The position numbers were made by a program, and so were the translations under genes. A stretch of DNA of 27,941 nt, taken from positions 1-27,941 of the IMG/VR virus record IMGVR_UViG_3300044613_003920; one strand, written 5' to 3'. Numbering within the stretch: position 1 is the first letter of the stretch; each line of letters starts with the position of its first letter. Source of the stretch: a virus. Below the pieces are notes generated by a model that was not told the DNA's origin, did not search any database, and was given only the letters and a program-made list of their open reading frames with translations. This document shows positions 2,396 through 20,455 of the stretch, one piece after another.

Positions 2396-2715
2396 AAGAA
2401 AGAGAAGAAATATTTTTTGATTTTGGCTTTACTACACAAGACGAAAATGATATAATAGCCAATAGTGATCTACACTATGATGTGGAGACGACTCGAGACA
2501 GAGTTGTTCAACTAGAAACATTGTTGAAAACAATGAACAAAAAAGTCCATACCATTTATGATAGAATATCGCCTTTGTTGAATAATCTTTTAAAAGATGC
2601 AGATGAGAAACCAATTATCAATTGGCCAAACAGAAAAGAAAAGATTACAGAATTTCAAAAGATACTGAAGAAAATTGTCGATGAAGCTGACCAGATTATT
2701 AAAGGAGAGAGTTGA
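2392..2715 (+). CDS. Hypothetical protein, 107 aa
   Basis: Unrecognised protein between polymerase and uvsX. The N-terminus is acidic and aromatic (MKEREEIFFDFGF). From about residue 30 to the end it is helical and charged, with a likely coiled coil around residues 38-60 (QLETLLKTMNKKVHTIYDRI). It overlaps the 30-aa membrane peptide upstream through ATGA, and its TGA overlaps the ATG of uvsX as TGATG. All three are therefore probably translated as one coupled unit. The start at 2392 is set by that overlap. Position suggests a replication or recombination accessory role, but nothing in the sequence proves it. Confidence 0.75.
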   Translation: MKEREEIFFDFGFTTQDENDIIANSDLHYDVETTRDRVVQLETLLKTMNKKVHTIYDRISPLLNNLLKDADEKPIINWPNRKEKITEFQKILKKIVDEADQIIKGES

Positions 2716-3785
2716 TGGCCAAGAAGAATGATTTTTTGAGGGACTTCATTTCCGAACTAGGAGATGAGAATACTTCTATTGCAGCCGATGGAGTTTCGGC
2801 GGGAGAGTTTGCTGGATTTGTTGATACGGGTTGTTATGCACTGAACGCTGTGCTTTCTGGTTCAATCTATGGTGGAATCGCTGATAATAAAGTGACAGGG
2901 TTCGCTGGCGAAAGCTCAACTGGCAAAACCTTTTTCGTTCTTGGCATTGTCAAGAATTTCCTTGATGCGAATGAAGATGGATTCGTTGTTTATTATGATA
3001 CAGAAGCAGCTGTCACTAAGGATATGATGGAGAGCAGAGGTATTGACACTTCTCGTGTTGTTATCTCAGAACAAGAAACTATCCAGAAATTCAGGCATCA
3101 TGCTATCAAGATCATTGACAGTTATGTTGCCAAACCAGAAGCAAAACGCCCGAAGATGATGATGGTTCTTGATTCTCTTGGTATGCTTTCAACTACGAAA
3201 GAGTTGGAAGATTCTACTGAAGGAAAAGAAACTCGTGATATGACCAAAGCCCAAGTCATTAAAGCTGCATTCAGGGTTCTAACTTTGAAGCTGGCAAGAG
3301 CGAAGATTCCTCTGATTATTACCAACCATGTTTATGCGGCTGTTGGTGCATATGTTCCAACAAATGAAATCTCTGGTGGGTCTGGTTTCAAGTTTGCTGC
3401 AACTACCATTGCAATGCTTTCGAAGAAAAAAGAAAGAGAAGGTACTGATGTTGTTGGTAATATTGTTACCGTCAAGATGTATAAGTCTCGCCTGTCGAAA
3501 GAAAATCAAATGGTCCACGTCAGGCTTTCTTATGCAACAGGACTTGATAGATATTATGGACTAGCAGAAATTGCCGAAGAAGCTGGTGTGTTTGAAAAGG
3601 TTGGCAACAAACTGAAGATGCCAGACGGCAAAACTATTTTTGAAAAAGCGCTTAATCGCGAGCCTGAAAAGTATTATACTCAAGAAGTGCTTGATGCCAT
3701 CGAGAAGCAAGTGAAACAAAAATTTGCTTACGGAGTTAACAGCCTTGACGATGAGCTAGAGGAAGTTTATGAAGAGGAAGAATAG
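2715..3785 (+). CDS. uvsX: UvsX-type RecA-like recombinase
   Basis: RecA-family strand-exchange ATPase for phage recombination and recombination-dependent replication. The Walker A motif is GESSTGKT (about residues 65-72) and the Walker B strand is MMMVLDSLGM (about 150). The length of 356 aa is close to T4 UvsX (391). The C terminus is an acidic tail (LEEVYEEEE), as is usual in this family. A TTG three bases upstream is possible, but the ATG at 2715 overlaps the previous stop (TGATG) and has AGGAGAG at a good distance. The last 36 bp of the gene, encoding the acidic tail and containing a GAGGAAG ribosome-binding site, are repeated exactly at the end of the following gene. Confidence 0.93.
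   Translation: MAKKNDFLRDFISELGDENTSIAADGVSAGEFAGFVDTGCYALNAVLSGSIYGGIADNKVTGFAGESSTGKTFFVLGIVKNFLDANEDGFVVYYDTEAAVTKDMMESRGIDTSRVVISEQETIQKFRHHAIKIIDSYVAKPEAKRPKMMMVLDSLGMLSTTKELEDSTEGKETRDMTKAQVIKAAFRVLTLKLARAKIPLIITNHVYAAVGAYVPTNEISGGSGFKFAATTIAMLSKKKEREGTDVVGNIVTVKMYKSRLSKENQMVHVRLSYATGLDRYYGLAEIAEEAGVFEKVGNKLKMPDGKTIFEKALNREPEKYYTQEVLDAIEKQVKQKFAYGVNSLDDELEEVYEEEE
3750..3785 (+). repeat. 36-bp direct repeat, copy 1 (end of uvsX)
   Basis: Exact 36-bp copy of 4023-4058. It encodes the residues DELEEVYEEEE plus the stop codon and holds a GAGGAAG ribosome-binding site just before the following start codon. It flanks the inserted 90-aa gene on the left. Confidence 0.97.
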
Positions 3786-4058
3786 GTGAGCAGTAATAAT
3801 TGTGTTGTCTTTTATTGGTATGAGAAAGAAGGACAGCGTTTCTATCGGTGTAGGGGTTACGGAGCAAAATACGATAAGTTCTATAGGGAGTGGATCAACT
3901 CATCCTCGTACAGATGTACTTATGAGAATTTTCCGTGGGACTTTTTCGTTTTTGACAATCCTATAGACTGGGCACGATTGGAACGGGACTTTCCAGGTGA
4001 CGTTTATGAGGACAATAGAGAGGATGAGCTAGAGGAAGTTTATGAAGAGGAAGAATAG
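3786..4058 (+). CDS. Hypothetical 90-aa protein inserted between uvsX and helicase
   Basis: Starts with GTG directly after the uvsX stop and ends directly before the helicase ATG. The first ~75 residues are rich in aromatic residues and arginine (FYWYEKEGQRFYRCRGYG, then W and F runs) and match no family I recognise. The last residues, EDELEEVYEEEE, are not a convergent tail: the DNA there is an exact 36-bp duplicate of the uvsX end, including its ribosome-binding site. The simplest reading is that a cassette entered between uvsX and the helicase, and each flanking gene kept the translation signal it needs. T4 has gene 40 at this spot, but no resemblance to gp40 is visible. It could be a selfish or moron-type insertion. 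Confidence 0.75.
   Translation: MSSNNCVVFYWYEKEGQRFYRCRGYGAKYDKFYREWINSSSYRCTYENFPWDFFVFDNPIDWARLERDFPGDVYEDNREDELEEVYEEEE
4023..4058 (+). repeat. 36-bp direct repeat, copy 2 (end of 90-aa gene)
   Basis: Exact copy of 3750-3785. It forms the C-terminal codons of the inserted gene and supplies the ribosome-binding site for the helicase that starts at 4059. Confidence 0.97.
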
Positions 4059-5486
4059 ATGACATCAGAGAGAGTTGAAGACGCCATATTTTCGAATCTC
4101 TTGCATAATGAGAATTATGCCAGAAAAGTTATTCCTTTTATCAAAGAAAGTTATTTCCAGGATGTAACAGACAGGACGCTCTTCAATCTTATCGACACCT
4201 TTGTTGCCAAGTATAATAAATTCCCAACCAAAGAATCTCTTCTAGTTGATCTACAGGCAATCAACAATCTTCAAGAATCCACATTCAAAGATCTCAAGAA
4301 ATATATCTCCGATATCTCTGAAAAGAAATTTGAGGACCAGTGGCTTGTTGATAAAACTGAAGAGTTCTGCAAAGACAAAGCGTTGTATAATGCTTTGATG
4401 GACGCCATCAAGATTGTCGATGATGGCAAAAACAAGGGCAATCTATCAGTAGGATCTATCCCTAAGATTCTATCTGATGCTCTTGGTGTTTCTTTTGACA
4501 CGAGTATCGGCCATGACTTTCTTGACAATGCCGATCAACGATATGACTTCTATCATTTGGTTGAGAACAAAGTCAAGTTCGATCTTGATTACTTCAACAA
4601 GATCACAAAGGGTGGCATTGCCAACAAAACTCTGAACATCATCATGGCTTCCACTGGTGTTGGTAAAAGTTTGTTCATGTGTCACTGTGCGGCCAACAAT
4701 CTCTCGGAGGGATTGAACGTTCTTTATATCACTCTGGAAATGGCCGAGGAAAGAATCGCCGAAAGGATAGACGCCAATCTTCTTGATATGACTATTGACG
4801 AGCTCAAACAACTTCCTAAAGATTCTTATCTGAAAAAGATCAATAGGGTGAAGAAAAAGACTGATGGTAAATTGATCATCAAAGAATATCCGACAGCTTC
4901 AGTCGGATCTGCCAACTTCAGGCATCTGTTGAATGAGCTAAGTCTGAAGAAAGACTTCAAACCTGATATCATATATATAGATTACCTAAACATATGTTGC
5001 AGTTCTCGTTTTAAAAATATGGCTGGCGTTAATTCTTACACTCTGGTCAAATCTATTGCTGAAGAATTGAGAGGACTGGCTATTGAGTTTGATGTGCCTA
5101 TTATTTCGGCGACCCAAACGAATAGATCAGGTTATGATAACAGCGATGTGGATTTAAGTAACACTTCTGAATCGTTTGGTCTGCCAGCAACTTGTGACTT
5201 TATGTTTGCTCTGATATCTAATGAACAACTGGAATCTCTAAATCAAATTATGGTGAAACAACTTAAGAATCGCTATAATGATCTAAACTATTACAAGAAG
5301 TTTGTGATTGGTGTTGATAGGTCGAAGATGAGATTGTATGATGTCGAGGAAAGCGCCCAAAGCGATATAGTTGACAACAGTTCTAAGAAGGAGGAAGACA
5401 GGCCAGTTATGGATAATACCGTTTTCGGAAGTCGTATGAATGATGATGCAGATTATAGGAAGCAGAAGATGAGGGAATTCTTTTGA
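4059..5486 (+). CDS. 41: Replicative DNA helicase, T4 gp41 / DnaB type
   Basis: Hexameric 5'-3' replicative helicase of the DnaB/gp41 superfamily. The length of 475 aa equals my recollection of T4 gp41. An N-terminal helical domain (about 1-165) is followed by a RecA-like motor: Walker A ASTGVGKS (about 197-204), a Walker B strand DIIYIDYLN, and a region (ENSYTTVK-like NSYTLVKSIAEELRGLA, then SATQTNRSG and SESFGLPATCDFM) that runs parallel to gp41. The start ATG follows the upstream TAG directly, and its ribosome-binding site lies in the duplicated 36-bp block. The gene sits with uvsX and the polymerase, as expected of a replisome cluster. The last bases overlap a small downstream frame. Confidence 0.93.
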   Translation: MTSERVEDAIFSNLLHNENYARKVIPFIKESYFQDVTDRTLFNLIDTFVAKYNKFPTKESLLVDLQAINNLQESTFKDLKKYISDISEKKFEDQWLVDKTEEFCKDKALYNALMDAIKIVDDGKNKGNLSVGSIPKILSDALGVSFDTSIGHDFLDNADQRYDFYHLVENKVKFDLDYFNKITKGGIANKTLNIIMASTGVGKSLFMCHCAANNLSEGLNVLYITLEMAEERIAERIDANLLDMTIDELKQLPKDSYLKKINRVKKKTDGKLIIKEYPTASVGSANFRHLLNELSLKKDFKPDIIYIDYLNICCSSRFKNMAGVNSYTLVKSIAEELRGLAIEFDVPIISATQTNRSGYDNSDVDLSNTSESFGLPATCDFMFALISNEQLESLNQIMVKQLKNRYNDLNYYKKFVIGVDRSKMRLYDVEESAQSDIVDNSSKKEEDRPVMDNTVFGSRMNDDADYRKQKMREFF

Positions 5487-5698: not shown

Positions 5699-6031
5699 AT
5701 GAACAAAAGTGGATATATGCAAACTAATCTTCCCGAATTTAAGGTCAATGCCTCTAAAAACGGATATGAGATTCGTACTGAGATTCTCAATATGGCCCTC
5801 GGTTTCGTTCAAAACGAATTCAGTTCTAAATTCACTGGATGGGAACTGTCTTGCAAACGCGATGAAAAGACCAACCAACTTGTGACAACAGTTGGTATGC
5901 CAAGTTTTCCAGGATTAGATGTTGTGCTTGATACAGCCGAAAGGATGTACTCTTTCGTCAGCACTAATACTCCTCCCACACCAAAGGTGGAAAAAACTGA
6001 GAAGCGTTCTAGCAAACACTCTGACGAGTAA
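5699..6031 (+). CDS. Hypothetical protein, 110 aa
   Basis: Preceded by a strong AAAGGAG ribosome-binding site 7 bases before the ATG. The protein has a mixed alpha/beta-looking N-terminal part (about 1-85, including NGYEIRTEILNMALGFVQNEF and GWELSCKRDEKTNQLVTTVG). A proline- and charge-rich tail (TPPTPKVEKTEKRSSKHSDE) is probably disordered. Similar short proteins occur in T4-type genomes as far as I recall, but I cannot name a function. The TAA overlaps a 22-bp palindrome (AACATTA-N8-TAATGTT) that may end the transcript or serve as an operator. Confidence 0.8.
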   Translation: MNKSGYMQTNLPEFKVNASKNGYEIRTEILNMALGFVQNEFSSKFTGWELSCKRDEKTNQLVTTVGMPSFPGLDVVLDTAERMYSFVSTNTPPTPKVEKTEKRSSKHSDE

Positions 6032-7701: not shown

Positions 7702-7786
7702 CGTTTTTAGGCGTGTTTTGGCATTTATTAATGAAAATTAACGAAAAAGTTTGGGGTTAACGGAAAAAACCTAATAAAATCAGTCA

Positions 7787-7808
7787 AACATTACCAATAT
7801 TTAATGTT
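7787..7808 (+). repeat. Palindrome AACATTA-N8-TAATGTT, copy 3
   Basis: Perfect 7-bp arms, 8 bp before the TTTACT -35 box of leader copy A. Confidence 0.75.
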
Positions 7809-7816
7809 GAGGGGGA

Positions 7817-7844
7817 TTTACTTCCTCTTCCATTGGGGTAGAAT
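7817..7844 (+). promoter_or_regulatory. Early promoter of leader A (TTTACT-N16-TAGAAT)
   Basis: The TTTACTT -35 box resembles the GTTTAC-type box of T4 early promoters and TAGAAT is a good -10. An equivalent element with 16-bp spacing occurs in copy B. Confidence 0.6.
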
Positions 7845-7950
7845 GGTCCTGTTCTGGGAAGGCTCTGTGACTATCGAGGCCGATCCTACCTGACTATCGG
7901 TTTGATCACTGTCCGCAGATACCGCTGTTTGACATCGTGGAAAGATTGAC

Positions 7951-8039
7951 GGGCCACCGATCTAGGTGTCCCATGGGGCTCGCTGGGCTTAAACCCAGCG
8001 ATGCCATGTTTGTTGCGAAAGTCAGCTTAGTGCGCTGAC
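7951..8039 (+). other. Hairpin-rich gene-free leader before the broken tRNA
   Basis: Three stem-loops follow each other: GGG-CACC / GGTG-CCC (7951-7972), TCGCTGGG / CCCAGCGA (7980-8001) and GTCAGC / GCTGAC (8021-8039). No ribosome-binding site with a convincing frame was seen between 7894 and 8080. It probably is an untranslated leader whose original downstream gene has been displaced. Confidence 0.5.
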
Positions 8040-8158: not shown

Positions 8159-8662
8159 ATGTATACTGTTTATAAGATAACAAATTTGGTCAACCAAAAA
8201 TATTACATCGGCGTCCACAAAACAGATAACCCATATGATTCTTATATGGGGTCTGGATATGCAGTAAAATCCGCCATCAAAAAACACGGCAGAAAGAATT
8301 TTATAAAGGAAATTCTTTTTACCACAGTTGATAAAGAAGAAGCTTACGCTTTCGAGAAAAAATTAACTGAAGATTATATGACAAGAGATTCATATAATAT
8401 GAAAATTGGTGGCGTTGGAGGGTTTTCTAGAGAGAACGCTTTAAAGGGGCATGCCGCTTCTCTAAAGAAATTAACAAAACAACAACGTTCTGATAATGGA
8501 AAACTTGGTTACGCTGCAATGCTTCCCAAAATCAATCTAAATGAGATTGGCAGAAGGGGAGGTCAGGCTAACAGAGGCAAACCAAAATCCGAAGCGCATA
8601 AAGAAAAACTTCGGCAAGTTTGGAGAGACAAAAAAATAAGGGCGAGTCGCCAAGAGGTCTAA
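8159..8662 (+). CDS. GIY-YIG homing endonuclease, Seg-like, with NUMOD3
   Basis: A 167-aa site-specific endonuclease. The GIY-YIG domain runs from about 3 to 90: VYKITN, YYIGVHK (Y16-G18), YMGSGY, catalytic-type Glu in AFEKKLTEDY and SYNMKIGG. A DNA-binding NUMOD3-type motif follows (GKPKSEAHKEKLRQ, about 140-153). It has its own late promoter and GGAG ribosome-binding site, as free-standing T4 Seg genes do. It lies between the two ends of a broken tRNA, and its last seven codons run into a complete tRNA-Met. T4 SegB likewise sits in and spreads the T4 tRNA region (established knowledge), so this enzyme probably targeted the tRNA locus. It appears intact. Confidence 0.9.
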   Translation: MYTVYKITNLVNQKYYIGVHKTDNPYDSYMGSGYAVKSAIKKHGRKNFIKEILFTTVDKEEAYAFEKKLTEDYMTRDSYNMKIGGVGGFSRENALKGHAASLKKLTKQQRSDNGKLGYAAMLPKINLNEIGRRGGQANRGKPKSEAHKEKLRQVWRDKKIRASRQEV

Positions 8663-8716
8663 GGCCGCCACCTCATAAGTGGTTCATCGCAGGTTCAAAT
8701 CCTGCCTCGCCTACCA
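8640..8716 (+). tRNA. tRNA-Met (CAT)
   Basis: Complete cloverleaf: acceptor GGGCGAG / CTCGCCT (first pair G-T), D-arm GCC...GGC, anticodon stem GCCAC / GTGGT with loop CTCATAA (CAT), T-arm GCAGG-TTCAAAT-CCTGC, discriminator A and encoded CCA. It lacks the initiator hallmark of three G-C pairs in the anticodon stem, so it is an elongator Met, or Ile if the C34 is modified to lysidine. Its first 23 bases double as the end of the endonuclease gene. Confidence 0.88.
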
Positions 8717-9062: not shown

Positions 9063-9073
9063 GCTTCCATCTG

Positions 9074-9097
9074 ACCCCAGTGGAAACCCACTGGGGT
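9074..9097 (+). repeat. Intergenic hairpin module 1
   Basis: Stem ACCCCAGTGG / CCACTGGGGT, loop AAAC, followed by AGGCGTAGTT and ATGGAGAAA before the 81-aa gene. Confidence 0.92.
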
Positions 9098-9125
9098 ACA
9101 GGCGTAGTTGAAATGGAGAAAATGA

Positions 9126-9371
9126 ATGCAAACCGAAACGTCCAACGTAGAAGTCTTCGCTCTTATTGCAAGGCTTGAATGGAACGATTTCGAAGACTCT
9201 GACTATCAGTCTTTCTCTGGCGTAATAAGCAAAACGCCTCTGATTGCTGAAGATGAAGAGCTTCAACTCATCTATGTCCTAGATGATCAGGTTCTGCAGG
9301 TGCTCGACTCCCGTGGTAATGTGAAGAAAATATACACTCTTCGCGCCACTGAAGCGATCAGAGCTCTGTAA
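9126..9371 (+). CDS. Hypothetical protein, 81 aa
   Basis: Start ATG preceded by ATGGAGAAA, the ribosome-binding site supplied by hairpin module 1. The protein is acidic (MQTETSNVEVFALIARLEWNDFEDSDYQSF) with a beta-like second half (ELQLIYVLDDQVLQVLDSRGNVKKIYTL). It shows no signal peptide or membrane segment and I recognise no family. It is flanked on both sides by hairpin modules, so it is a one-gene cassette in the early array. Small acidic early proteins in T4-type phages often target host proteins; nothing here proves that for this one. Confidence 0.75.
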   Translation: MQTETSNVEVFALIARLEWNDFEDSDYQSFSGVISKTPLIAEDEELQLIYVLDDQVLQVLDSRGNVKKIYTLRATEAIRAL

Positions 9372-9378
9372 TCTGCCT

Positions 9379-9402
9379 ACCCCTACGCAAAAGCGTGGGG
9401 GT
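9379..9402 (+). repeat. Intergenic hairpin module 2
   Basis: Stem ACCCCTACGC / GCGTGGGGGT (one T-G pair), loop AAAA, followed by TTT, GGCGTGTCT and ATGGAGAAA. It is the most divergent copy and the only one with a short T-run, so it may also act as a terminator. Confidence 0.88.
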
Positions 9403-9428
9403 TTTGGCGTGTCTAATGGAGAAAAACT

Positions 9429-9653
9429 ATGTTTTCTAACTGGAAATACCGTGTATATGATACGGTAGAAAAGAAATATGCCATCAAGAAACGTTATGCT
9501 TCTGATGCAGAAGCAATGGTCGCTGTAGAGCGTCTAAGACGTAGGCATAAAGACAGTCCCTTTGGCAGGTTCATGGTTCTTGTCGATCCTGGTATAAAGA
9601 AAAAACGCCATAGTGACTATTATCAATCCCGAATCGTCTATGTCGGTGATTGA
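9429..9653 (+). CDS. Hypothetical basic protein, 74 aa
   Basis: One-gene cassette between hairpin modules 2 and 3, with ATGGAGAAA upstream. The product starts MFSNWKYRVYDTVEKKYAIKKRY, which looks like a short antiparallel beta unit, followed by a helix (ASDAEAMVAVERLRRRHKD) and a basic, beta-like tail. The high Arg/Lys content would suit nucleic-acid or acidic-surface binding, but that is only a guess from composition. No family recognised. Confidence 0.72.
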   Translation: MFSNWKYRVYDTVEKKYAIKKRYASDAEAMVAVERLRRRHKDSPFGRFMVLVDPGIKKKRHSDYYQSRIVYVGD

Positions 9654-9659
9654 TTCCTT

Positions 9660-9683
9660 ACCCCAGCGAAAACTCGCTGGGGT
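9660..9683 (+). repeat. Intergenic hairpin module 3
   Basis: Stem ACCCCAGCGA / TCGCTGGGGT, loop AAAC, followed by AGGCGTAGTTAGGAG. Here the ribosome-binding site is AGGAG rather than ATGGAGAAA. Confidence 0.92.
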
Positions 9684-9708
9684 CAAGGCGTAGTTAGGAG
9701 TGTGTAAC

Positions 9709-9810
9709 ATGAGAAATATAAACTGGGGTTTCATTTTCGGAATGCTATTCTGTGTGGCCTTTTGGCTATCAGTTATTGTTTCGATCAACATCTTGATTCA
9801 AGGAAACTAA
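9709..9810 (+). CDS. 33-aa single-span membrane micropeptide
   Basis: ATG about 11 bases after AGGAG of module 3. The peptide MRNINWGF is followed by a continuous hydrophobic stretch (IFGMLFCVAFWLSVIVSINILI) and ends QGN. It is a clear single-pass membrane peptide with the positive charge at its N-terminus, hence probably N-in. The next gene follows two bases after its stop. It is too small for most gene finders, but its placement directly behind a module and its composition support it. A function in membrane depolarisation or superinfection exclusion is conceivable, with no evidence. Confidence 0.65.
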   Translation: MRNINWGFIFGMLFCVAFWLSVIVSINILIQGN

Positions 9811-9812
9811 TT

Positions 9813-10034
9813 ATGGAAACCTTTACCGTAGACAACGCTGCTATGGGTCGAGCCAAGGTCTGGGAATACAAACAGGAAGAAACTGTTCGTGAAATTCCCT
9901 GCCAGGGCTGTAAATTCATTGTTCGATGCACTGATTCGCTCACTGATTGCTTCGCCTTCAGGCGTTGGACTCATAGTGGTAACTACAGCGATCGCCAGAT
10001 CAACCATCTGGTTCGTCCTTTTGAAACGGAGTAA
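9813..10034 (+). CDS. Hypothetical cysteine-containing protein, 73 aa
   Basis: Start at 9813 chosen because AGGAAAC sits 9 bases upstream and the ATG follows the micropeptide stop. A longer frame from 9762 would run through that peptide. The product has four cysteines (CQGCKFIVRCTDSLTDC), a CxxC...C...C pattern that could bind a metal such as zinc, followed by FRRWTHSGNYSDRQINHLVRPFE. No family recognised. It is the second gene of the three-gene cassette behind module 3. Confidence 0.7.
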   Translation: METFTVDNAAMGRAKVWEYKQEETVREIPCQGCKFIVRCTDSLTDCFAFRRWTHSGNYSDRQINHLVRPFETE

Positions 10035-10037
10035 ATT

Positions 10038-10301
10038 ATGATCAATCGCAAACTCAAACTCATCGAAGAAAAAGGATCTATCAATACTCTTCGATTCGTC
10101 AACGAGATGACAAAACTTCCAGTTGGAATCATCTATAAGACGAGAGACGAAAAAGGAATACTCTGGCAAGTTGAAGCCTTTGATGACTTCAACGGCAAGA
10201 CCAAGGGATTCCGAAGCTTGGAAGCGGCAAGATATTACTTGTGCGCTTTCGCCGTTGAGGCTTGGGAAGAAGAAGTCGCAGAGATGCGATTTGCGAGTTA
10301 A
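10038..10301 (+). CDS. Hypothetical protein, 87 aa
   Basis: Third gene of the cassette behind module 3, starting four bases after the previous stop with ACGGAGTAA as ribosome-binding site. The product looks like a small alpha/beta protein: beta strands around LRFVNEMTKLPVGIIYKTRDEKGILWQVEAF, then a helix (SLEAARYYLCAFAVEAWEEEVAEM). No family recognised. Module 4 follows directly and probably ends the cassette. Confidence 0.72.
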   Translation: MINRKLKLIEEKGSINTLRFVNEMTKLPVGIIYKTRDEKGILWQVEAFDDFNGKTKGFRSLEAARYYLCAFAVEAWEEEVAEMRFAS

Positions 10302-10308
10302 ACTCCTC

Positions 10309-10332
10309 ACCCCACTGGAAACCCAGTGGGGT
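10309..10332 (+). repeat. Intergenic hairpin module 4
   Basis: Stem ACCCCACTGG / CCAGTGGGGT, loop AAAC, then AGGCGTAGCT and, after a 9-bp insertion relative to other copies, ATGGAGAAA. Relative to module 1 both stem strands have changed (AGTG to ACTG, CACT to CAGT), keeping the pairs. Confidence 0.92.
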
Positions 10333-10366
10333 CGAGGCGTAGCTAAAGCATGTATGGAGAAAAATA

Positions 10367-10744
10367 ATGCTTCCTGCTGGTGAATACTATATCGGTGATC
10401 TTTGCTACGTCATTGATGACGAGAATTGGGATAACTTCTGTGCAATGACTTGTTTCGGGAACCATGTTCTCGATGGCGAGTTTAATTTCCAGGGTACTGC
10501 TATCGCTTGCTACGGAACTATGTACGGCGATGGTTGCTACAGAGATCAAACGGGCCACGAATATCCTGTGGATGCTGGTTTGATTGGTTGTATCCTTCTG
10601 AGCGAAATCACCAAACCAGAAGGTGTCGAACATGGAAGGGTTGTCACTTTTGAGAGATCTTTCAGAACGTTCAGTTATAGAGGCGTCATCGGGTTCGATA
10701 ACGTCCAAATCGACACCAGCGATAACGAAAAAGACGAATATTAA
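10367..10744 (+). CDS. Conserved phage-type protein with GxYxIGDLCYV motif, 125 aa
   Basis: Starts MLPAGEYYIGDLCYVIDDENWD, a pattern (GxYxIGDxCYV) I recall from many phage and plasmid hypothetical proteins whose function is unknown. Further features are a GTAIACYGTMYGDGCYRD segment with repeated glycine and cysteine, a central VDAGLIGCILLSE strand and an acidic tail (SDNEKDEY). Module 4 supplies ATGGAGAAA. The stop codon lies inside a 10-bp stem hairpin (10733-10759) that separates it from leader copy B. No membrane segment. Confidence 0.78.
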   Translation: MLPAGEYYIGDLCYVIDDENWDNFCAMTCFGNHVLDGEFNFQGTAIACYGTMYGDGCYRDQTGHEYPVDAGLIGCILLSEITKPEGVEHGRVVTFERSFRTFSYRGVIGFDNVQIDTSDNEKDEY

Positions 10745-10759
10745 CGAAAAATATTCGTC
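10733..10759 (+). terminator. Hairpin over the stop codon of the 125-aa gene
   Basis: Stem GACGAATATT / AATATTCGTC, 7-base loop, no T-run. A factor-dependent terminator or an mRNA 3'-end structure. Confidence 0.45.
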
Positions 10760-10789
10760 CCTGCAGAAAAAACCTAATAAAATCAGTCC

Positions 10790-10811
10790 AACATTACGAA
10801 GATTTAATGTT
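10790..10811 (+). repeat. Palindrome AACATTA-N8-TAATGTT, copy 4
   Basis: Perfect 7-bp arms, 7 bp before the TTTACT box of leader B. Confidence 0.75.
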
Positions 10812-10818
10812 GGAGGGG

Positions 10819-10846
10819 TTTACTTCCTCGTTCGATAGGGTAGAAT
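10819..10846 (+). promoter_or_regulatory. Early promoter of leader B (GTTTACTT...GTAGAAT)
   Basis: TTTACT, 16-bp spacer, TAGAAT, preceded by G as in T4 early promoters. It would serve the gene array to the terminator at 13720. Confidence 0.62.
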
Positions 10847-10868
10847 GGTTGTGTTCTGGAAGGGTTCA

Positions 10869-10994
10869 GTGACTATCGAGACCTGCCTTCGGGCACTCCC
10901 AGTTCCACTGTTTGACATTGTAGAGAGACTGACGCGACCTCCGCCTAGGAGGCGCAATTGCCGACCTCACCCCAGTGGAAACCCACTGGGGTAG
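10869..10994 (+). CDS. Possible leader peptide, 41 aa, GTG start
   Basis: GGAAGG lies five bases before the GTG, and this arrangement (GGAAGG, 4-5 bases, GTGACTATCGAG) is the same in leader copy A. The peptide reads MTIETCLRALPVPLFDIVERLT and then a proline/arginine-rich stretch that runs into hairpin module 5, stopping at the TAG of GGGGTAG. In copy A the codons for LFDIVERLT differ only at synonymous positions, but a length change upstream breaks the frame. This suggests a once-translated leader peptide or gene fragment. It could equally be a shadow of an RNA leader. Confidence 0.3.
   Translation: MTIETCLRALPVPLFDIVERLTRPPPRRRNCRPHPSGNPLG
10969..10992 (+). repeat. Intergenic hairpin module 5
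   Basis: Stem ACCCCAGTGG / CCACTGGGGT, loop AAAC, then AGGCGTAGCTAG. The ribosome-binding site before the next gene is GAGGAAA. Confidence 0.92.
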
Positions 10995-11035
10995 AGGCGT
11001 AGCTAGCAATCAGGCTAGAATGAGGAAACTTGATT

Positions 11036-11197
11036 ATGAAAAATGCGAAAAAAGCTGCTGCTCCGTTTGTTATCAAGCACAAGAATGCCAGGACTGGCCA
11101 GACTTTTGTGCTGACGTATACTGATGGTGAAGTTGCGCGTCGCGCTTCTGCTTACTTCACCGAACTCGGTATCGAACATAAGCTGATCGCTGCTTAA
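11036..11197 (+). CDS. Hypothetical basic protein, 53 aa
   Basis: Short gene between modules 5 and 6, with ATGAGGAAAC before the ATG. The product begins MKNAKKAAAPFVIKHKNART and continues with GQTFVLTYTDGEVARRASAYFTELGIEHKLIAA. The pattern is beta-beta-helix-beta, with an Ala/Lys-rich N-terminus that may be flexible. Codon use is slightly more GC-rich than in the metabolic genes. I recognise no family. The clean fit between two modules and the good ribosome-binding site make it a likely real gene despite its size. Confidence 0.7.
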   Translation: MKNAKKAAAPFVIKHKNARTGQTFVLTYTDGEVARRASAYFTELGIEHKLIAA

Positions 11198-11207
11198 TTA
11201 CCCGCCC

Positions 11208-11231
11208 ACCCCACTGGAAACCCAGTGGGGT
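11208..11231 (+). repeat. Intergenic hairpin module 6
   Basis: Stem ACCCCACTGG / CCAGTGGGGT, loop AAAC, then AGGCGTAGTTAG and ATGGAGAAA. Confidence 0.92.
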
Positions 11232-11258
11232 CGAGGCGTAGTTAGAATGGAGAAACTT

Positions 11259-11435
11259 ATGTCTAAGATGGCTATCTTCTTTCAAGAAACTGGTGAAGAA
11301 GGAATCATCCACTATAATGATGGGGAAACCCTAGAACAGCTTCTAGAGCGTTCTCCCCCTGAGTGGCGATATCGCTACACAGAAACTCCTCGTCGTTATC
11401 AGTACGATCCTGATCGTGATGATTACGATTACTGA
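11259..11435 (+). CDS. Hypothetical acidic protein, 58 aa
   Basis: The ATG at 11247 belongs to the repeated ATGGAGAAA ribosome-binding site, so the start is placed at 11259 (MSKMAIFFQETGEEG). The rest is acidic and helical (DGETLEQLLERSPPEWRYRY), and the tail alternates Asp, Tyr and Arg (DPDRDDYDY), probably disordered. No family recognised. It is a one-gene cassette between modules 6 and 7. Confidence 0.7.
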   Translation: MSKMAIFFQETGEEGIIHYNDGETLEQLLERSPPEWRYRYTETPRRYQYDPDRDDYDY

Positions 11436-11443
11436 TCGACCTC

Positions 11444-11467
11444 ACCCCAGTGGAAACCCACTGGGGT
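11444..11467 (+). repeat. Intergenic hairpin module 7
   Basis: Stem ACCCCAGTGG / CCACTGGGGT, loop AAAC, then AGGCGTAGCTGAA and, after an insertion, ATGGAGAAT. Confidence 0.92.
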
Positions 11468-11506
11468 AGAGGCGTAGCTGAATTAGCAGCAAATGGAGAA
11501 TATTGA

Positions 11507-11737
11507 ATGGCTAAGTCCCGTGTCCAACGCATCCGCAGCCTTGCTAACGCTTTCGAGCGTATCACTCGCGGTGTGATCGTTACGGATAATCTCCTCAATA
11601 CCTACTTCGATAAGAAAGCTGATGAGATAGAGGCGTTCAACGCCGAGCTCACTGATGTTCTTACTACGAAAGAGGAGCTCGTCGAGCCTACCGAAACGGT
11701 AGTTCGCGCAGCGAAACGACGTAAGAAAAGGTCGTAA
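11507..11737 (+). CDS. Hypothetical helical protein with basic tail, 76 aa
   Basis: Starts MAKSRVQRIRSLANAFERITRG, is helical throughout (DKKADEIEAFNAELTDVLTTKEEL) and ends in a strongly basic tail (RAAKRRKKRS). Two opposite charge patches suggest a DNA- or RNA-associated or host-factor-binding protein, but no family is recognised. GGAGAA lies about 9 bases before the ATG. One-gene cassette between modules 7 and 8. Confidence 0.72.
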   Translation: MAKSRVQRIRSLANAFERITRGVIVTDNLLNTYFDKKADEIEAFNAELTDVLTTKEELVEPTETVVRAAKRRKKRS

Positions 11738-11745
11738 CGCCCAAC

Positions 11746-11769
11746 ACCCCAGCAGAAACCTGCTGGGGT
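11746..11769 (+). repeat. Intergenic hairpin module 8
   Basis: Stem ACCCCAGCAG / CTGCTGGGGT, loop AAAC, then AGGCGTAGTTGAA. A third stem variant with pairing preserved. Confidence 0.92.
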
Positions 11770-11798
11770 AGAGGCGTAGTTGAAAGAAGGAAATCGAT

Positions 11799-12017
11799 AT
11801 GACCTGTCTTAAAACTATCTGCGAACTCGCCGCCAAAGTTGGTGTCGATTTAACTGGTAAGCTGACTCGTTCAGAAATGAGACGAGTGATATGGGATCAT
11901 TATGACGAGAAGCATCGCGAAGCTTATGCTGCTGGTCTGCGTGATCTAATATGGATAACTCAAGCTGATATTGATCTGCTTGATTCTTTAGAAATTAGCA
12001 GCTTCAGAAAGCCTTAA
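11799..12017 (+). CDS. Hypothetical protein, 72 aa
   Basis: GAAGGAAA precedes the ATG. The product is helical: MTCLKTICELAAKVGVDLTGKLTRSEMRRVIWDHYDEKHREAY, then GLRDLIWITQADIDLLDSLE. The segment GVDLTGKLTRSEMRRVI resembles a short SAP- or helix-turn-helix-like DNA-binding unit, a weak impression only. It is followed after nine bases by tRNA-Leu and tRNA-Glu, with which it probably shares a transcript from leader B. Confidence 0.7.
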   Translation: MTCLKTICELAAKVGVDLTGKLTRSEMRRVIWDHYDEKHREAYAAGLRDLIWITQADIDLLDSLEISSFRKP

Positions 12018-12026
12018 TTTCCTTGA

Positions 12027-12114
12027 GCGGGCGTGGCGAAATTGGTAGACGCACCAGACTTAAAATCTGTTAGGCCGTAGGCCTGTGTCGGTTCGAGTCC
12101 GATCGCCCGCACCA
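12027..12114 (+). tRNA. tRNA-Leu (TAA)
   Basis: Acceptor GCGGGCG / CGCCCGC, anticodon stem CAGA / TCTG with loop CTTAAAA (TAA), long class-II variable arm (GGCCGTAGGCC), T-loop TTCGAGT, discriminator A and encoded CCA. All stems pair. Confidence 0.95.
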
Positions 12115-12119
12115 ATTAA

Positions 12120-12194
12120 GGTCCCTTCGTCTATCGGTTAGGACGCTAGGTTTTCAACCTAGAAAGACGGGTTCGACTCCCGTAGGGACTACCA
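12120..12194 (+). tRNA. tRNA-Glu (TTC)
   Basis: Acceptor GGTCCCT / AGGGACT (first pair G-T), D-arm GTC...GAC, anticodon stem CTAGG / CCTAG with loop TTTTCAA (TTC), T-arm ACGGG-TTCGACT-CCCGT, discriminator A and encoded CCA. Five bases after tRNA-Leu. Confidence 0.94.
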
Positions 12195-12208
12195 ATCACA
12201 TAACCTTC

Positions 12209-12232
12209 GCCCCAGCGAAAACTCGCTGGGGT
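12209..12232 (+). repeat. Intergenic hairpin module 9
   Basis: Stem GCCCCAGCGA / TCGCTGGGGT (outer G-T), loop AAAC, then AGGCGTAGCTAG and ATGGAGAAA. Confidence 0.92.
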
Positions 12233-12261
12233 AGAGGCGTAGCTAGAATGGAGAAAAACAT

Positions 12262-13122
12262 ATGCTACTTCGAATATTCGGAGTTGTTCTGATCGTTGCT
12301 GGTTTCGGTCTGGCAGCGATATCTGGCTATCTGGCGTATTTCGGTTTTGAGCACACCATCAAGCTGCCATTTATCGGTATGATTGGTCCCTTCGTGGCCC
12401 TTTCGCTGGCTTCTCTCGGCGTTGCCGTCGAGGTTGCCTTTCGTCGCCGTAAGTGGTTGGCCTTCGTGCCCCTGTTCGCTCTGATGGTTGTTGCTGGTTT
12501 GATCGATAAGAATGGTGGCGAGATCGCCCTCAAGAATATCGTCAACGACGCGACCCAAGGTGACTCTGACCGTAATACTGCCTATAGTACAGCTCTTTCT
12601 ACCAAAGCCGATCTTGAGAAACAGATCGCAGACCTTGAGGCTGAATACAAGGTTATGACTGGTAGCGATATCGCTGCCGCCCAGGAAGTCCTGTTGGCGC
12701 GTGGTCTGTATGTTGATGCGGCTGGAAATCCGATGCCCATCGACGGAAAGCGTGGCCCCTTTACGTTGAAAGCTATGGCTGATCGTGGAAAGGCTATCAC
12801 TGCGGAACTGGGTAATGTCCGTAGTGATCTTAAGAGTGCGACGGCAACGGTCGCCTCTGGTGCTGCAGTTACTGAAGCACCCTTTACCCTCCACCAAGCA
12901 GAGCTCTATGCTCTGATGATCACAGTCATGTCTGTGCTCTTTGCGATGGCTGGTTCTTTCGTTTACGGCGGTTTCGGCGACGATGAGCCGAATATCGATG
13001 AAGAAATCGAGCAGGTCGAAGAAATTGCTTCCAAGATGGAAAACAATATCGTTCGCCTTGCAGAGCACTTCGGTGCCTTCGAATTCGACGATGAGCCTGC
13101 AGCCAAGCGCAAGCGTGGATAA
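12262..13122 (+). CDS. Four-span membrane protein with peptidoglycan-binding-like segment
   Basis: A 286-aa integral membrane protein. Hydrophobic segments lie at about 4-27, 36-59, 66-82 and 213-237. Between the third and fourth is a soluble part of ~130 residues: a coiled coil (STKADLEKQIADLEAEYK, about 113-130), then AQEVLLARGLY...DGKRGPFTLKAM (about 140-172), which follows the LxxxGxY...DGxxGPxTxxAV pattern of PG_binding_1 domains. The C-terminal tail is acidic with a basic end. If the loop is periplasmic, it could touch the cell wall, fitting superinfection exclusion or lysis timing (inference). The DNA is more GC-rich than most neighbours, suggesting recent acquisition. Module 9 provides its ribosome-binding site. 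Confidence 0.8.
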   Translation: MLLRIFGVVLIVAGFGLAAISGYLAYFGFEHTIKLPFIGMIGPFVALSLASLGVAVEVAFRRRKWLAFVPLFALMVVAGLIDKNGGEIALKNIVNDATQGDSDRNTAYSTALSTKADLEKQIADLEAEYKVMTGSDIAAAQEVLLARGLYVDAAGNPMPIDGKRGPFTLKAMADRGKAITAELGNVRSDLKSATATVASGAAVTEAPFTLHQAELYALMITVMSVLFAMAGSFVYGGFGDDEPNIDEEIEQVEEIASKMENNIVRLAEHFGAFEFDDEPAAKRKRG

Positions 13123-13149
13123 TCGACCCGTAAGGGTGGCACTACCTCT

Positions 13150-13173
13150 ACCCCTGCTCAAACGAGTGGGGGT
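13150..13173 (+). repeat. Intergenic hairpin module 10
   Basis: Stem ACCCCTGCTC / GAGTGGGGGT (with T-G and G-T pairs), loop AAAC, then AGTCGTAGTTAG and ATGGAGAAA. Last copy of the array. Confidence 0.9.
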
Positions 13174-13200
13174 AGAGTCGTAGTTAGAATGGAGAAACAA

Positions 13201-13518
13201 ATGGCTGATATTGAAATTGTTGCATCTGATGGACATGGAATCTACCTTCCTCAGCATGTCGCCGGATCTTGCGGCGCTGAGTTGTTTCCGATAAGGAACA
13301 ACCCAAAGAATGCAAACCAGCTTAAAGAATGCATCAACATTCTTATGAGTGGTCCTACAAACAACGACTATTGGGAAGCTTGGCACTGGGTGTTGGATAA
13401 TGCCTGCATAAAAGTCAATCGTTCGCGTTGGTCTCTTTACCAAGACGGAGATTGTTGGGCTATTCCAATGAACAAAAAAGGTCGTCAAGAGGCCGCAAAA
13501 TTGTTTGGCTGGGAATAA
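13201..13518 (+). CDS. Hypothetical protein, 105 aa
   Basis: The ATG at 13189 is part of the ATGGAGAAA ribosome-binding site, so the start is 13201 (MADIEIVASDGHGIYLPQHVA). Visible features are a central WEAWHWVLDNACIKVNRSRWSLYQDGDCWAIP, rich in Trp and with a D-G-D turn, and a C-terminal helix (KKGRQEAAKLFGWE). Short phage proteins of this layout (alpha/beta, Trp-rich, ending xxLFGWE) are familiar as hypotheticals, but I cannot name a function. It is followed by the 61-aa gene after 11 bases. Confidence 0.75.
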   Translation: MADIEIVASDGHGIYLPQHVAGSCGAELFPIRNNPKNANQLKECINILMSGPTNNDYWEAWHWVLDNACIKVNRSRWSLYQDGDCWAIPMNKKGRQEAAKLFGWE

Positions 13519-15763: not shown

Positions 15764-15838
15764 GCGGACGTGGTCTAGATATATGGGCCTTGGTCTTCCA
15801 AACCAAAGAGGCAGGCGAGATACCTGTCGTCCGCTCCA
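15764..15838 (+). tRNA. tRNA-Gly (TCC) with non-canonical D- and T-loops
   Basis: All four stems pair (GCGGACG / CGTCCGC; GTCT / GGGC with wobbles; TTGGT / ACCAA; GCAGG / CCTGT). The anticodon loop CTTCCAA reads TCC, with discriminator T and encoded CCA. Two universal features are missing: the D-loop (AGATATAT) has no GG pair and the T-loop (CGAGATA) has no TTC. The normal D-loop/T-loop contact cannot form in the usual way. It may be a specialised or impaired tRNA. Its 3' half is copied at 16512-16551. Confidence 0.75.
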
Positions 15839-15839
15839 A
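15800..15839 (+). repeat. 40-bp direct repeat, left copy (3' half of tRNA-Gly)
   Basis: Exact match to 16512-16551. It starts at the base next to the anticodon and ends one base after CCA. Together the copies bracket the methyltransferase islet. Confidence 0.97.
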
Positions 15840-15883: not shown

Positions 15884-16492
15884 ATGAAAATTGAGCTAGG
15901 CACCGATTCCGGTGATTATGAATTGCTGCGCGAGGCGGTGCAGTTGGCGCCGAACGGCTACTACCTTGCCACCGAGATCGGCGTGCGAGAAGGCGGCTCC
16001 ACCCAAATGATTATGGAAGAGCTTGCCGCGAAGAAGTTTCGCGGGATGCTGACCCTGATCGACCACTACGGTGGGATGCCGCAATGGCACTCGGATACAG
16101 AGTGTGTCGTGCTCGACTACACGAACGAAATGCGTAACCGAGCGATGTCGTCGATCTACCAGTTGGCCAACCACCACAAGATCAACTTCCAGTTTTTCAA
16201 TCTGGCCGACGACGACTTCTTCGCCTTCTTTCCAGACGGCGTACCGATCTATAGCGGCGGTGTGCGGATGTTGGTGAACGAATACTGTTTCGCTCACTTG
16301 GACGGCCCGCACCGCGTAGAACTGGTGGAGAAGGAAGCCGCGTTTTTCGCACCACGCATGGTGAGGGGTGGTGTGATCGTCACTGACGACATCCAACTCT
16401 TCAACTTCAAACAGTTCACCAAGTTCGCCAAGACTATTGGCCTAGAGCTTGTGAAGAAGGGCGGCCTCAAAGCGGTGTTCCAGAAGCAATGA
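15884..16492 (+). CDS. Class I SAM-dependent methyltransferase, horizontally acquired
   Basis: A 202-aa protein with the Rossmann-type methyltransferase pattern: EIGVREGGST (about 31-40, SAM-binding motif I), LTLIDHYGG (about 57-64), FAHLDGPH (about 137-143) and GGVIVTDD (about 162-169). This is the layout of the Methyltransf_24 group, whose members methylate small molecules, sugars or lipids; the substrate here is unknown. It is not obviously a DNA methyltransferase (no DPPY-type motif). The DNA is far more GC-rich, with GC-ending codons, than its AT-rich neighbours, marking transfer from another genome. It lies alone between two 40-bp copies of the tRNA-Gly 3' half. AGGA sits eight bases before the start. 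Confidence 0.85.
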   Translation: MKIELGTDSGDYELLREAVQLAPNGYYLATEIGVREGGSTQMIMEELAAKKFRGMLTLIDHYGGMPQWHSDTECVVLDYTNEMRNRAMSSIYQLANHHKINFQFFNLADDDFFAFFPDGVPIYSGGVRMLVNEYCFAHLDGPHRVELVEKEAAFFAPRMVRGGVIVTDDIQLFNFKQFTKFAKTIGLELVKKGGLKAVFQKQ

Positions 16493-16511: not shown

Positions 16512-16551
16512 AAACCAAAGAGGCAGGCGAGATACCTGTCGTCCGCTCCAA
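16512..16551 (+). repeat. 40-bp direct repeat, right copy (tRNA-Gly 3' remnant)
   Basis: Exact copy of 15800-15839 without any 5' tRNA half before it, as left by integration or recombination at a tRNA gene. Confidence 0.97.
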
Positions 16552-19786: not shown

Positions 19787-20455
19787 ATGTCTAATATTGA
19801 TCGTTACGCCAAGTTTATATCAGAGCAAGCTCGTATTGCTAGACTGGATGGACCAAAACAATTGAGCGAAGAATGGACAGCGCATGAAGTGAACGCCGAA
19901 CCCCTACACCCAGATAATGATGGGAGGGGATATGGTGGTCACGATCCAGACGTACCCTTAGTAAGCGGCAAACTTCATCACACAGATGGCCATACAGCTG
20001 AATTTGTTAGATCACCTAATGGCGTATTAAGTGTTGATGTTCATCATGCAAAAACAATAGAAATTGCTGGTGGGTATGCCGAATTACAAAGATCTGCAGA
20101 AAAAGCAGCACAGGAAATATGCGATAAACACGATGGATTAAATGAATCAAAACAGCTGAGCGAAGAATGGACAGTGCATAAAGTGGAAGGCGGTGAAGTC
20201 ACTCTACATCATCAAGAAGATGGTCATAAAGCTGTTGTTAAGAATGGTAAAGTTACTTTGACAGTTGATAAAGAAAAATTGCTGGACAGGGCTTTTATTC
20301 CACCTCCGAGCTTGAAGGATTTCTTCGCCGCCCATCCGGAAGGCGATATGGGACAATTTTCTACATATATAGAAACCACTCGTGAAGCTCCAGAAATGAA
20401 ACGTTTAGAAAAAACTGCTCGTGAAGCAGCAACTGCTGCATTGGAAAAAAAATAG
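19787..20455 (+). CDS. Late protein with internal repeat and capsid-targeting-like N-terminus
   Basis: A 222-aa protein behind a late promoter, with AGGGAG before the ATG. The N-terminus MSNIDRYAKFISEQA resembles the T4 capsid-targeting peptide (F-I-x-E followed by a cleavage point). The motif KQLSEEWTxHxV occurs twice (about residues 25 and 124), each time at the head of a His- and Gly-rich beta-like stretch (VSGKLHHTDGHTAEF; VTLHHQEDGHKAVV), so the protein is two diverged copies of one unit plus a helical tail (EMKRLEKTAREAATAALEKK). No enzymatic motif seen. Possibly a packaged internal protein. It ends in a textbook terminator. Confidence 0.75.
   Translation: MSNIDRYAKFISEQARIARLDGPKQLSEEWTAHEVNAEPLHPDNDGRGYGGHDPDVPLVSGKLHHTDGHTAEFVRSPNGVLSVDVHHAKTIEIAGGYAELQRSAEKAAQEICDKHDGLNESKQLSEEWTVHKVEGGEVTLHHQEDGHKAVVKNGKVTLTVDKEKLLDRAFIPPPSLKDFFAAHPEGDMGQFSTYIETTREAPEMKRLEKTAREAATAALEKK

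Follow-up and report, generated by a model that had tools for sequence, protein, structure and literature searches.

The stretch of DNA analyzed here (the window) comprises 27,941 nucleotides of the IMG/VR virus record IMGVR_UViG_3300044613_003920, in which a RecA-like recombinase gene (uvsX) and a gp41-type replicative helicase gene are separated by a short reading frame that is bounded by an exact repeat. The sequence GATGAGCTAGAGGAAGTTTATGAAGAGGAAGAATAG occurs at 3750 to 3785 and again at 4023 to 4058, with 36 of 36 positions identical and a start-to-start distance of 273 bp, and the two copies enclose 237 bp of unique DNA; the duplication that a first-pass annotation of this DNA had placed at the end of uvsX and immediately before the helicase ATG is thus real. 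The locus contains the following features.

2715 to 3785, + strand: uvsX, RecA-like recombinase (PHROG 97, E 8e-81), ending in ...DDELEEVYEEEE and the stop
3750 to 3785, + strand: copy 1 of the 36-bp repeat, with the UvsX acidic tail, stop, and Shine-Dalgarno GAGGAA; serves the GTG at 3786
3786 to 4022, + strand: unique insert of 237 bp, 79 open codons from the GTG, no relatives
3786 to 4058, + strand: 90-amino-acid (90-aa) frame, consisting of the insert and copy 2; the 273-bp presence/absence unit (from the open reading frame list and the relatives)
3987 to 4022, + strand: possible diverged third tail unit (21/36 versus copy 2; core GACGTTTATGAGGA, 12/14), suggestive only
4023 to 4058, + strand: copy 2 of the 36-bp repeat, with the end of the 90-aa frame and the helicase Shine-Dalgarno
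4059 to 5486, + strand: DnaB/gp41-like replicative helicase (PHROG 19, E 1e-121)

Despite the insert, UvsX and the helicase are both full length and in frame. Copy 1 consists of the last 11 codons of uvsX and its stop, while copy 2 supplies the last 11 codons and the stop of the 90-aa frame, with the helicase ATG at 4059 next. The 90-aa frame begins with the GTG at 3786, the base right after the uvsX stop, and reads through copy 2 in the same frame as UvsX, giving it the C terminus DELEEVYEEEE. No third site for the repeat was found in the window at three or fewer mismatches, and 100 shuffles of the sequence yielded no match. The insert with its identical copies is also present in two further assemblies, G001 (100% identity over 6.1 kb) and G006 (99.99% over 13.9 kb), which are the same strain as the window phage and not independent events; a structure found in three assemblies is not an artifact of a single one. 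Apart from the metagenomic source of the data nothing favors a chance match or an assembly artifact, and given the empty shuffles and the shared structure such an origin is next to impossible. No + strand promoter and no terminator or inverted repeat was found at the locus (3500 to 4300/3700 to 4120).

We compared the locus with relatives in a sample of 79 IMG/VR loci that carry a UvsX relative. Among these, L002, L003, and L004 are the nearest relatives without the insert (UvsX proteins 94, 90, and 90% identical, respectively); in all three, uvsX and the helicase are joined directly, through a TAATG overlap in L002, TAAATG in L003, and TAGATG in L004. These direct junctions lacking the 273 bp make the 273 bp a clean presence/absence unit, which is most simply read as an insertion. 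The first-pass annotation had named, as the finding that would undo its reading, a 90-aa gene that is universally present with a diverged tail, the repeat then being only recent gene conversion; this refutation fails, because the gene is absent from L002 to L004 and is therefore not universal. The same 36 bp differ from those of L002, L003, and L004 at 4, 12, and 8 of 36 positions, respectively, with the Shine-Dalgarno part constant. Full identity of the copies next to divergence among the relatives would mean that the duplication either postdates the split from L002 or is homogenized by gene conversion. No excised variant with near-identical copies of the phage's own flanks was found in IMG/VR, and no diverged version of the 90-aa gene was found in the relatives compared.

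Within the repeat, GAAGAGGAAGAATA forms the last codons of UvsX and is constant in L002, L003, and L004, where the preceding codons vary; it includes GAGGAA, approximately 8 bases 5' of the helicase start. Its retention in insert-free relatives bears out the earlier claim that the repeat carries both the end of UvsX and the helicase ribosome-binding site. The predicted pairing of the Shine-Dalgarno with the 16S end is alike at copy 1, at copy 2, and in the three relatives (-6.0 kcal/mol), a modest value next to random 20-mers of the window (mean, -3.6 kcal/mol; 5% reach -7.8 kcal/mol), so the argument rests on conservation and position rather than on energy. A gene placed between the uvsX stop and the helicase start would separate the helicase from its Shine-Dalgarno, and copy 2 restores this site.

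The insert itself resembles nothing in the collections searched. No homolog of the 90-aa frame was found by tblastn against phages and plasmids or in PHROGs, Pfam, and PDB, peptide scans of IMG/VR and GTDB gave no match, and phmmer against 25,632 open reading frames (ORFs) of the compared loci gave none. A donor for the insert was likewise absent from phages, plasmids, IMG/VR, GTDB contigs, PDB, and protein families at the sensitivities used. The frame has no endonuclease domain in PHROG and Pfam searches (no GIY-YIG or HNH match), and neither terminal or flanking inverted repeats nor a transposase was found at the insert. The first-pass annotation had suggested looking for the 90-aa gene at other loci with other borrowed ends; none turned up in any search, which leaves the idea of a mobile cassette with borrowed ends unsupported. 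Seventy-nine open codons have a chance probability of about 0.005 to 0.007 and follow a good Shine-Dalgarno, while the codon score of the insert (-0.04 bits/codon) is below the range of the 23 other frames scored (0.11 to 0.28). An AlphaFold model made without an alignment reached a pLDDT of 53. The insert may be coding DNA of foreign origin or a newly arisen reading frame with a putative product. Two other candidates were rejected: an RNA element (fold z-score, -0.36) and a plain tandem duplication of uvsX, since beyond the tail the insert is unlike uvsX, the helicase, and the other phage DNA compared. The last 36 bases of the insert are aligned in tandem with copy 2, exactly in register and in the same frame, a hint that the insert came with a tail-like end. 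This could be chance: the comparison was made post hoc, five more of the 27,905 places in the window reach 21/36, and shuffling with local alignment, without regard to register, gave a P value of 0.22.

The junction between uvsX and the helicase appears from the gene orders compared to be a common place of gene gain in this phage superfamily. It holds gene 40 in T4, a 2OG-Fe(II) oxygenase in P-SSM7, and nothing in S-SKS1, and in more distant relatives of the window phage it holds unrelated genes, mostly 2OG-Fe(II) oxygenase-like genes and small ORFs. Such ectopic ORF insertions in T4-related phages, among them T4 gene 40 and the cyanophage 2OG-Fe(II) oxygenase, resemble the present case in placing an unrelated gene between intact core neighbors, but the exact copy of the upstream gene's end is seen only here: among 43 relatives with other inserts, the longest recurrence of the uvsX end before the helicase was 11 bp. 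These junctions in T4-related phages are typically without mobile-element signatures (review, PMC2993671). Downstream of the helicase, a 110-aa gene at 5699 to 6031 is present in G002 and has no tblastn match in the related phage G003, where its flanks are nearly joined; this is a further gene gained or lost next to the helicase.

To place the repeat against a base rate, we surveyed eight named T4-like genomes and two long contigs for isolated exact repeats of at least 24 bp within 2.5 kb, of which there were few. Among the repeats inspected (leaving aside KVP40, phiM12 36214, and Aeh1 70772), those of T4 and P-SSM7 are situated at gene 5' ends or shortly before them, that of G008 resembles a promoter repeat, that of Cr30 copies a gene 5' end, that of phiM12 joins two paralogous genes, and that of Aeh1 at 119980 is intergenic. 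An insert framed by 3' ends was not found in 612 kb of related loci, except in copies of the same insert. The partial gene-end duplications of T4 (the 47-bp start shared by ipII and ipIII; alt.-1 and alt.-2) are similar in being exact or old copies of gene ends beside accessory genes, but they copy the 5' end, with ribosome-binding site and start, whereas here the 3' end is copied. In L197 (Cr30, 124800 to 126300), a gene start region recurs two genes upstream as a short remnant, a 5'-end counterpart of the uvsX-end copy.

Aside from a family of stem-loop elements, the window contains only one other exact repeat of at least 20 bp within 2.5 kb. This repeat is 40 bp long and frames a second accessory gene.

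15764 to 15838, + strand: tRNA-Gly(TCC)-like gene (Infernal, 38.4 bits; gathering score, 29)
15800 to 15839, + strand: copy 1 of the 40-bp repeat, from tRNA position 37 to CCA plus one base
15884 to 16492, + strand: methyltransferase-domain gene (Pfam PF13578, E 2e-8), GC rich (55%; GC3, 0.75)
16512 to 16551, + strand: copy 2 of the 40-bp repeat, an exact copy of the tRNA 3' half located 3' of the methyltransferase gene

The Rfam model of the tRNA ends at 15835 and is followed by CCA, and ARAGORN missed the gene, which has an unusual T-loop (CGAGATA) and may be degenerate. As in tyrosine-recombinase elements seated at tRNA genes, the 3' part of the tRNA is duplicated at the far end of the unit, but these 712 bp contain one methyltransferase-domain gene and no integrase gene. 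G003 has a normal tRNA-Gly with a similar leader, followed by a different, nonalignable methyltransferase-like gene behind which no copy of the tRNA end longer than 13 bp was found; the ancestral state is less clear at the tRNA locus than at uvsX. At two sites in one phage, then, a gene lies behind the 3' end of another gene whose last 36 to 40 bp recur behind it, and this second case makes coincidence less likely.

Several other features of the window involve repeats or mobile genes. A stem-loop element (CCCCAGTGGAAACCCACTGGGG, then AGAGGCGTAG...ATGGAGAA) occurs nine times at 9068 to 13202, mostly just 5' of small ORFs; it is PeSL-like and is also found in G003 at approximately 32712 to 36680. 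A stretch of approximately 240 bp is present in two diverged copies (71 to 81% identity) 3 kb apart, at 7733 to 7973 and 10736 to 10956, and a 51-bp repeat (82%) at 19848 to 19898 and 20142 to 20192 lies in frame within a 222-aa ORF. A GIY-YIG homing endonuclease gene (8159 to 8716) overlaps at its 3' end a tRNA-Met gene (8640 to 8716). PeSL promoter/stem-loop cassettes, as summarized in PMC4503421 from Arbiol 2010 and Comeau 2014, shuffle genes of T4-type phages; going by that summary, they share with our locus short repeats beside accessory genes, and a PeSL-like family is present elsewhere in the window, but the 36-bp repeat differs in lying inside coding sequence and in having no promoter, terminator, or inverted repeat. 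The free-standing homing endonuclease genes of T4 (seg and mob) are promoterless, inserted between conserved genes, and use their neighbors' signals (PMC2988022); the 90-aa frame is alike in position and in the use of neighboring signals and differs in lacking relatives and any match to GIY-YIG or HNH.

We consider it probable that a 237-bp segment, foreign or newly formed, was inserted into this T4-like phage by ectopic illegitimate recombination, linked to replication or break repair, in the course of which the last 36 bp of uvsX were copied. Either an end that had broken or stalled at the uvsX stop would have been lengthened on a foreign template and joined back 36 bp upstream, or overlapping ends, two in number, would have been bridged or joined; a diverged tail in exact register at the insert end would offer limited homology. 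The product would read uvsX tail, insert, tail, helicase, in which the left copy would keep the UvsX end and give its ribosome-binding site to the GTG of the insert, while the right copy would close the insert frame with the last 11 residues of UvsX and let the helicase regain its own Shine-Dalgarno. Illegitimate double-strand-break repair with joining at microhomology is described for T4 (review, PMC2988022), ectopic insertion has been proposed for T4 relatives (PMC2993671), and UvsX and Dda support template switching (PMC3016280). Insertions would pass selection only if both essential genes could still be expressed. The first-pass annotation spoke of a "neutral-insertion design": the signals of both neighbors are indeed preserved, but a dedicated design is unnecessary, since insertions that disrupted UvsX or the signal of the helicase would be lost and selection against broken neighbors would by itself leave clean, design-like junctions. 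The insertion may be neutral. We infer that absence is ancestral, together with the copying mechanism (a 36-bp back strand switch or overlapping-end joining) and any function of the insert; the failure to find a donor in the collections searched speaks against a firm assignment of direction and mechanism.

The same arrangement could have arisen if the gene were older, with gene conversion keeping the repeat identical and a precise deletion between the copies removing the gene from the relatives. Such a deletion would rebuild exactly the junction seen in L002 to L004, and T4-like phages recombine intensely. We nevertheless regard this history as unlikely, because three insert-free relatives require one or more losses, the relatives compared contain no diverged version of the gene, and the codon usage of the insert is unlike that of the phage. 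It is distinctly improbable that the copy was kept for the protein, the UvsX acidic tail enabling the 90-aa product to bind or mimic UvsX partners. The continuation of the frame into copy 2 in the UvsX frame, up to its acidic end, would suit such a role, and in T4 gp32 an acidic C-terminal end mediates replisome contacts (PMC3016280), but third codon positions and the stop are identical too, which is what a recent copy would show, the helicase Shine-Dalgarno is enough to explain retention, and the insert's codon score falls under that of true genes.

A dedicated integration system that leaves a long target duplication at gene 3' ends, by way of a tRNA-type attachment site or a Cas1/casposase-like enzyme, would account for two unrelated genes in one phage being framed by 36- and 40-bp copies of upstream 3' ends. 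The tRNA repeat begins in the anticodon loop, as do those of classic tRNA attachment sites, and as in integration into tRNA or gene 3' ends the duplicated 3' end, in the second case a tRNA 3' half, keeps the target whole. The present cases differ in that no recombinase was found and one small gene lies inside. The two repeats share no sequence and differ in length, no integrase, transposase, or Cas1 occurs among the window proteins tested, and flanking inverted repeats are absent; with unrelated repeats and no recombinase among those proteins, such a system is very improbable and the weakest of these three alternatives to illegitimate recombination. We are also quite doubtful of a broader proposal, in which this lineage has a gene-capture process that places single genes behind 3' ends (uvsX and tRNA-Gly) and copies the last 36 to 40 bp of the target behind the insert, leaving targets and downstream genes functional and the insert precisely removable.

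The gain of ORFs by T4-like phages is already known, and what is unusual here is how well the junction is kept. Insertion junctions usually lack a signature (PMC2993671), and the way in which T4-like phages gained their many unique genes is therefore poorly known. The uvsX/helicase locus retains both ends of an apparently recent event, with empty sites in relatives and within a defined core operon. It leads to the prediction that gene capture is accompanied by copying of the upstream gene's end, which would protect the neighbors and leave a repeat for precise loss. The insert between uvsX and the helicase would thus represent a rare, recent trace of how T4-like phages pick up new genes.
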